Source: Deltaproteobacteria bacterium (GTDB lineage: Bacteria > Desulfobacterota > Binatia > UBA9968 > JAJDTQ01). Taken from it: DNA of 64,000 bases. The stretch lies in contig JAPPNF010000169.1 of NCBI GenBank assembly GCA_028818755.1, positions 1 through 64,000 of the forward strand, given 5' to 3'. This document shows, piece after piece, positions 41,327 to 43,143 of the stretch (the first letter of the stretch is position 1; every line of letters starts with the position of its first letter). The notes below the pieces were generated by a model that worked only from the letters and a program-made list of their open reading frames with translations, did no database searches and was not told where the DNA came from. Position numbers and translations under genes: made by a program.

Positions 41327-42316
41327 CTAGTTCACGGACTGGAATACCGGCCCGCCCGGGTAGAAGGCGGCGAAGCGGTCGTTCAGAATCGGGTTGTACA
41401 GGAGCTGCCGGAGCTTGCGCCCCTTGAGGGGACCCTCCACCGCTTCTCCGCGCAGCCACGACCACAGGCTTCCCGTCTCCTTGTCGCGCAACAGCACGTT
41501 GCCCTGCGCATCCTTGCGCTCCGACTTCGCGAAGGTCAGGACGCGGTCGTCGAGTTCCCGGCGCCACGCCGTACCCGTGGAGTCGCCGGGCGAGTAGTAC
41601 ACCACGATCTTGGCGCCGTTGAACTCGTCGTTGACCACGTTCTGCCGTTCGAGCGCCTTGTAGGGGTAGAGCTTGCCCTTGAACTTGACCACCACGGCCA
41701 GCCCGAGGGGCTCGCTGTCGTACGGGCCTACGTAGGTTCCCATGAAACCGCCGCGGCGGTAACCCGGCAGGACCAGGGTATCGGGATAGCTCTTCTTCCA
41801 GTTGGCCCAGCTCGTCACGGTCGACGGCATGAACTCCAGCCGCTCTCCCTTTAGCGGGCCGTGGGCCGCCTCGCCGGTCACGTGGACCCAGAGCGAATCC
41901 GTTTCCCGGTCGTACATGACGAACGATTGCTCGTAGAGGATTCCCGCGTGCCCGAAGCTCAACACCCTGTCGTCGAGTTTGCGTCTATACACGATAGACG
42001 TCTGGCACAGCGGTCACCAGGAGACGGCGATGGGCACCCCTCCGATGGTGTCGTTGCCGAGCTCGTGGACGCCCATGATGGTGATGGGATACGCCTTGGC
42101 TTCGCCCTTGTGGGCCACGCCGATGATCACGTCCCGGTCGAAGATGAACTGCTGCTTTTCCGCTTCCGCGGCGCTCAGCATCCTGGGGTCGTCGAAGACC
42201 GGGAACGCGTCCCGCGGCACCGCCTGCCAGCCGAAGGGGGGCGCCGCCGCCGTCGCGGCCGTGACCGCCGCCAGCGCGGCCGCGGCCAGCAAGGCCGTCA
42301 ATGATTTTCGGATCAT
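41327..42316 (-). CDS. DUF3179 protein, candidate selenoprotein (in-frame TGA at 42014-42016 at the CPLC first-Cys position)
   Basis: Two ORF-track pieces (42014..42376 and 41327..41992) share a frame: ...NDTIGGVPIAVSW-[TGA]-PLCQTSIVYRRKLDDRVLSFGHAGILYEQSFVMYDRETDSLW. Signal peptide and RBS at ATG 42316. Confidence 0.7.
41982..42000 (-). promoter_or_regulatory. Candidate bacterial SECIS hairpin
   Basis: mRNA CGUCUAU-CGUGU-AUAGACG; stem starts 13 nt and loop 20 nt after the UGA. Confidence 0.5.
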
Positions 42317-42411
42317 GGGTTCACCTCGTTTCCTGTCCTGTCGTCCCTCAACGATAACCGGTCGTCCTGTCTCCATTATTAACGATTACCGCGCCGGAGG
42401 CCACAGGCGGC

Positions 42412-43143
42412 TCACTTGCGGTGGAAGCCGAGGACCTCTCCGGTGATGTAGTCGCTGTCGCTGCACGCGAAGAAGACGAACGCCGGCGCTACCGTCTCGG
42501 CGGGGGCCGGAGCGGGCCGGGGGTCGGGAATCCCCTCGCGCTCACGGAAGTCGGCGATGGCGTCGGTCATGCGCGTGTCCGCGATGGGCGAGATGCAGTT
42601 GACCTGGATGTTGTGGGCCTTCATCTCGTTGGCGACGTTGAAGGTGAGGGTGATGATGGCGCCCTTGGCGGCGGCATAGTCCGACACCCCGTTGGACGGC
42701 CGCAACGCCGCCGGGCCGGTGAGGTTGATGATCTTGCCCGATCGTTGCCGCTTCATGATCGGGAGCACTGCCTGCATGCCGTTGAAGGTGCCCTTGAGAT
42801 GAACCCGGATGGTGTCGTCCCACTGCTCCTCGGTGATGTCCTCGAACCGTCTGAGCGTGAGGACTCCCGCGTTGTTGACGAGAACGTCGACGCGGCCCCA
42901 GCGTTCCTCGACTTCCCGCACAAGGCCCTCCACCTCCGCCCGCCGGCCGACGTCCACCAGCCGCGCGATGCTCTCGGCGCCCATGCCCGAGAGATCGTTC
43001 TGGACCGAATCGAGAGCCGCCTGGTCGCGCACTCCCGTGATGGCCAGAACCGCGCCCTCCCGGGCGAAAGCCAGCGCCACCGCCCGGCCGATGCCGCGGC
43101 TGGCGCCGGTGATGATGGCGACGCGCCCTTCAAGCCTACCCAT
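42412..43143 (-). CDS. SDR family oxidoreductase
   Basis: GRVAIITGASRGIGRAVALAFA, NNAGVL, SDYAAAKGAI. Confidence 0.93.
   Translation of the reverse strand: MGRLEGRVAIITGASRGIGRAVALAFAREGAVLAITGVRDQAALDSVQNDLSGMGAESIARLVDVGRRAEVEGLVREVEERWGRVDVLVNNAGVLTLRRFEDITEEQWDDTIRVHLKGTFNGMQAVLPIMKRQRSGKIINLTGPAALRPSNGVSDYAAAKGAIITLTFNVANEMKAHNIQVNCISPIADTRMTDAIADFREREGIPDPRPAPAPAETVAPAFVFFACSDSDYITGEVLGFHRK

Follow-up and report, generated by a model that had tools for sequence, protein, structure and literature searches.

An in-frame UGA codon, almost certainly read as selenocysteine, in a DUF3179 gene of a Candidatus Binatia lineage

Introduction

Two reviews include DUF3179, with the motif UxxC/T, among the selenoprotein families (PMC9312934, PMC13188914), and both trace the family to the study of Zhang and Gladyshev in 2007 on the Olavius algarvensis symbiont. 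In the bacterial SECIS model, a stem of 4-16 bp carries a loop of 3-9 nt with a G in the first two loop positions, the spacing from the UGA to the loop is 16-37 nt, and the energy limit is -7.5 kcal/mol (PMC13188914). Some public plasmid records are named 'DUF3179 domain-containing (seleno)protein', which agrees with the naming mentioned in the preliminary description of the present locus.

Here we analyzed a DUF3179 gene in a stretch of 64,000 nucleotides (contig JAPPNF010000169.1, positions 1 to 64,000 of the forward strand; hereafter the window), which had been proposed to encode a selenoprotein. That reading is correct but not new, as selenocysteine (Sec) forms of DUF3179 were already known. 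Added here are the occurrence of Sec in three clades of the tree, an internal duplication in which only the N-terminal repeat has the motif, and a weak resemblance of the predicted fold to Rieske domains.

Results

The gene and its coding frame

The preliminary description had joined two adjacent minus-strand open reading frames into one DUF3179 protein. We found a single frame running from an ATG at 42316-42314 to a TAG at 41329-41327, and in a profile search the read-through protein matched Pfam DUF3179 (PF11376) with 238 bits, compared with a gathering score of 27. The two frames can be read as one protein, as described. The features of the locus are as follows.

41327-42316, minus strand: predicted selenoprotein gene of the DUF3179 family, encoding 329 residues, with a single UGA in frame and TAG as its stop
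42317-42332, minus strand: ribosome-binding-site region, GAGGTGAACCC before the ATG; GAGGTGAA or close variants throughout the genus
42230-42316, minus strand: signal-peptide-like N-terminus of about 29 residues, its end placed approximately by eye; helix 3-20 in the predicted model
42014-42016, minus strand: UGA codon, predicted to be read as selenocysteine 101 (WUPLC) from conservation and alignment
42005-42007, minus strand: partner cysteine codon, Cys104 of UxxC, from translation and alignment
41982-42000, minus strand: hairpin CGUCUAU-CGUGU-AUAGACG, a candidate bacterial SECIS from comparative evidence; spacing of 20 nt from the UGA to the apical loop
41330-41744, minus strand: C-terminal repeat of the DUF3179 domain, SPGD in place of UPLC; limits approximate

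Both a ribosome-binding site, here the Shine-Dalgarno-like stretch GAGGTGAACCC 5′ of the ATG, and the signal-peptide-like N-terminus had been pointed out before, and both are conserved in the genus. The window contains 1453 TGA triplets in its six frames, 72 of which break a frame with no fewer than 60 open codons on the upstream side and 100 on the downstream side. Among these 72, the TGA of the DUF3179 gene was the only one with a coding-like codon-position composition on both sides. TGA also serves as an ordinary stop nearby, where an SDR gene terminates with TGA at 42412-42414. PADLOC and NCBIfam gave no match, and nothing was found in an Rfam search of the window.

Conservation of the UGA codon

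All nine genus genomes examined carry the DUF3179 gene, each with a single TGA inside, and the TGA occupies the identical codon in all 10 extracted loci. Across the class, DUF3179 was found in 46 of 150 genomes; 23 of the 46 have one TGA in the gene, at the same codon in every extracted locus. Where the motif column could be read in the class, it contained either UGA (UPLC, UTLC, UPLT) or Cys (CPLC, CPLT, CTLC). The TGA at 42014-42016 therefore corresponds to the first Cys of the CPLC motif of relatives, as had been proposed, and the partner Cys of UxxC is kept. Outside the class, the TGA is at the same codon in homologues from SAR324, with 64-66% identity, and in one from Planctomycetota, with 51% identity. 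The claim of intact homology and undisrupted frames also held, as relatives keep the TGA with intact frames. Within the genus, dN/dS was 0.096 upstream of the TGA; downstream of it, codons +1 to +40 gave 0.13 and the remainder 0.106. With values of about 0.1 throughout, the two sides of the TGA are under the same selection.

The close named relatives are metagenome bins labeled Candidatus Binatia or 'Deltaproteobacteria'; their isolate names (APA, RHO1) presumably refer to sponge hosts, which is our guess. One 76%-complete bin (G006) had two UGA-containing DUF3179 loci (L017 and L024), one of which is 98% identical to the protein of the window and has the same gene order. This bin probably combines two related species. 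The DUF3179 gene of G081 seems to be degraded, as more than one kind of stop codon interrupts it repeatedly, and in that of G142 a TAA close to the end forms a second stop.

Sec decoding machinery

A search of the genome for selA, selB, selC and selD had been suggested, and all four were found in the assembly of the window. The tRNA-Sec gene (selC) scored 73.1 bits (cut-off 47) as the sole match above the cut-off, and ARAGORN gave its anticodon as TCA. The selA gene scored 586 bits and selD 369 bits, and selB was found by its SelB wing domain. Genes selA, selB and selD are mutually adjacent on one contig (C9 of G000; L013 and L036, in the order selD-selB-selA). SelD of this genome carries its own in-frame TGA, in the stretch KAAGUAAKLG. 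The selC gene (L035:5648-5738, the same as L001) has two notable neighbors: a molybdopterin-oxidoreductase-like reading frame, whose 3′ end is some 20 bases away, and a major-facilitator-like transporter.

SelB was present in 127 of the 150 genomes of the class. Thus, the machinery is required but its presence does not discriminate strongly, and co-occurrence alone would be weak evidence. Every UGA-bearing genome has selA with the exception of G140. In this bin, reported as 100% complete, the UGA-containing DUF3179 gene (L055) was on a 6.5-kb contig, and selA, selB and selC were absent. The simplest reading is that this contig was mis-binned; the alternative would be that G140 is a genuine exception.

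The SECIS hairpin

The candidate hairpin spans codons +5 to +11 (ACG TCT ATC GTG TAT AGA CGC). Its stem of 7 perfect base pairs starts 13 nt past the UGA, and together with the CGUGU loop and its spacing it agrees with the bSECIS geometry. The isolated hairpin has an energy of -6.9 kcal/mol, just short of the limit, and the 54-nt stretch that contains it has -14.8 kcal/mol. The folding energy of the single sequence does not pick out the hairpin, since a 38-nt piece gave z = -0.1 with a different best fold. As thermodynamic scoring of one sequence is uninformative, the case for the SECIS is a comparative one.

At the fixed position, 6-7 of the 7 pairs are formed in all 21 UPLC sequences. Comparatively, 17 Cys homologues form 2-5 of the 7 pairs at the same positions (at most four in 16 of them, and five in one). 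Two stem pairs, at columns 19/33 and 21/31, vary on both sides yet stay paired (U-A, G-C, C-G), and eight UPLC sequences have a mismatch at the middle pair. For 16 distinct UPLC sequences we compared the covariation with 500 shuffles and with a sliding control. The score was 0.310 for the hairpin and 0.084 on average for the 500 shuffles, none of which reached the value of the hairpin, and the maximum on sliding was 0.145. As relatedness inflates shuffle tests, the sliding control weighs more. Within the genus, nine-codon windows that begin at codons +5 to +8 show no synonymous divergence, which is the minimum of the gene, compared with 0.27 overall. Some stem codons are rare in this GC-rich genome: AGA accounts for 2.2% of the codons for Arg, and TCT for 2.4% of those for Ser.

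A loose search for bSECIS-type hairpins did not separate UGA from Cys genes, as such hairpins occurred in Cys genes too. Given this result, we based the case for the SECIS on the fixed-position hairpin and its covariation only. The UPLT and UTLC forms did not fit the exact UPLC hairpin, and other hairpins were seen there. The UTLC loci are L047 and L053; the UPLT loci are L040 and L056, and this form has no partner Cys.

Protein architecture and predicted fold

The C-terminal half of the protein repeats the domain, the two copies sharing 39% identity across 97 residues (E = 5e-20). It has SPGD at the position of UPLC, so the reactive motif is confined to the first repeat. The AlphaFold model was confident (mean pLDDT 91.6). 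We found no relative among solved structures by sequence search, and no match reached significance in a fold search against the PDB. Among the high-probability PDB matches, Rieske was the sole recurrent fold, with Foldseek probabilities of 0.84-0.96 for the best ones: NirD-like 3c0d (0.95-0.96), toluene dioxygenase ferredoxin 3dqy (0.87) and PetC3 5cxm (0.93). The best Rieske E value was 0.09 for the full length and 0.23 for the N-domain, with TM-scores of 0.34-0.36 over the query domain. In the sequence, we noted no pair of CxH...CxxH cluster-ligand motifs as in Rieske proteins. We take this weak resemblance of the predicted fold to Rieske domains as a lead only. The N-domain model also had fold matches in uncharacterised giant-virus proteins, namely A0A1V0SD44 of Indivirus (E = 1.6e-6) and A0A1V0SF28 of Hokovirus (E = 0.04).

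Tree and gene neighborhood

In a tree built from the N-terminal domain, the UPLC forms all fall into one supported clade (99/95), and UPLT and UTLC are in separate supported groups near Cys forms. Sec thus occurs in three separate clades, which suggests at least three changes from Cys to Sec or repeated reversals, the inner branches being too weak to decide between the two. Within the UPLC clade, the genus of the window joins SAR324 and Planctomycetota (100/100), apart from its own order. This grouping suggests that the UPLC form was horizontally transferred, on thin sampling. The order of SDR, DUF3179 and RodZ-like genes is kept within the genus. The copies in SAR324 and Planctomycetota lack the SDR and RodZ-like neighbors, and the neighborhood yields no hint of function. 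In the Planctomycetota contig JAMLIC010000020.1 (L077:5873-6499), an AhpD/CMD-like gene directly downstream of the UGA-containing DUF3179 gene has an in-frame TGA at NGCHYU (CxxU). It is likely a second selenoprotein, belonging to a listed family.

Discussion

We are close to certain that UGA codon 101 is decoded as Sec, judging from the sequence comparisons: the Sec genes are present, the TGA is kept within intact frames, and the aligned column is either Cys or UGA. SelB and tRNA-Sec would decode the codon, directed by the hairpin at 41982-42000, which lies inside the coding sequence. We infer from the N-terminus that the protein is exported, and its N-terminal signal would route the two-repeat selenoprotein to the envelope. 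Sec101 and Cys104 (U-P-L-C) would be the reactive motif of the first repeat and are predicted most likely to alternate between a selenol-thiol and a selenenylsulfide state, as in a thiol-type oxidoreductase. As the protein is apparently exported and homologues can have Cys in place of the Sec of its two-residue motif, a thiol-type redox role in the envelope seems a reasonable expectation, which we favor with less confidence than the decoding itself.

Other explanations of the TGA must be considered. A damaged TGC or TGT codon, due to a pseudogene or to an error of sequencing or assembly, has a single point in its favor: the genome was binned from a metagenome and has 5.6% contamination. However, nine genomes of the genus that were assembled separately share the TGA at one exact codon, as do other families and two further phyla, and purifying selection is strong downstream of it; the nine genomes effectively refute such an error. 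We would give as little credit to the reading of the TGA as another residue, either Trp by a general change of the code or whatever a leaky near-cognate tRNA inserts. An open frame under a changed code does not itself prove Sec, but the SDR gene uses TGA as its ordinary stop, and no other TGA in the window breaks a coding frame. Homologues have Cys and not Trp in the aligned column, and both a dedicated set of Sec genes and a covarying SECIS were found.

Regulated termination is a different matter, in which a short secreted product would be made at scarce selenium and the full protein otherwise, both of them mattering to the cell. It would follow from a general property of UGA decoding, and the truncated product would stop just before the motif. 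Nevertheless, judging from the predicted fold, much of the first domain would be missing from the 100-residue fragment, and we regard this possibility as improbable, if a little less so than an error or another residue.

A bolder scenario would be that DUF3179 is a Rieske-like beta-sandwich in which the metal cluster was swapped for selenol/thiol chemistry, that Sec was gained at least three times at one column, each time with its own SECIS, and that one form moved between Binatia, SAR324 and Planctomycetota. As a whole, we think this unlikely.

Standard gene callers split or truncate the DUF3179 gene, so the protein is liable to mis-annotation in its lineage. The homologues, some with Cys and others with Sec and a covarying SECIS, provide a clean natural experiment on what Sec contributes to an uncharacterised envelope protein, and Binatia provide a concrete case of selenium use.

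Compared with known systems, the gene resembles the listed DUF3179 selenoprotein family (PF11376) in its Pfam family, its UxxC-type Sec motif and a bacterial host with the full Sec machinery; it differs in coming from a Candidatus Binatia lineage and in having a second, motif-less DUF3179 repeat. The Cys-form DUF3179 proteins of bacteria and haloarchaea share the fold family and the conserved A-Y-P, W/Y-C-P-L, D and W surroundings, but they have Cys for Sec, are mostly CPLT with no second Cys, and their SECIS hairpin is poor or absent. The fold of Rieske ferredoxins and the NirD-like small subunit (3c0d, 3dqy, 5cxm) is a recurrent match to the predicted model in fold but not in sequence.
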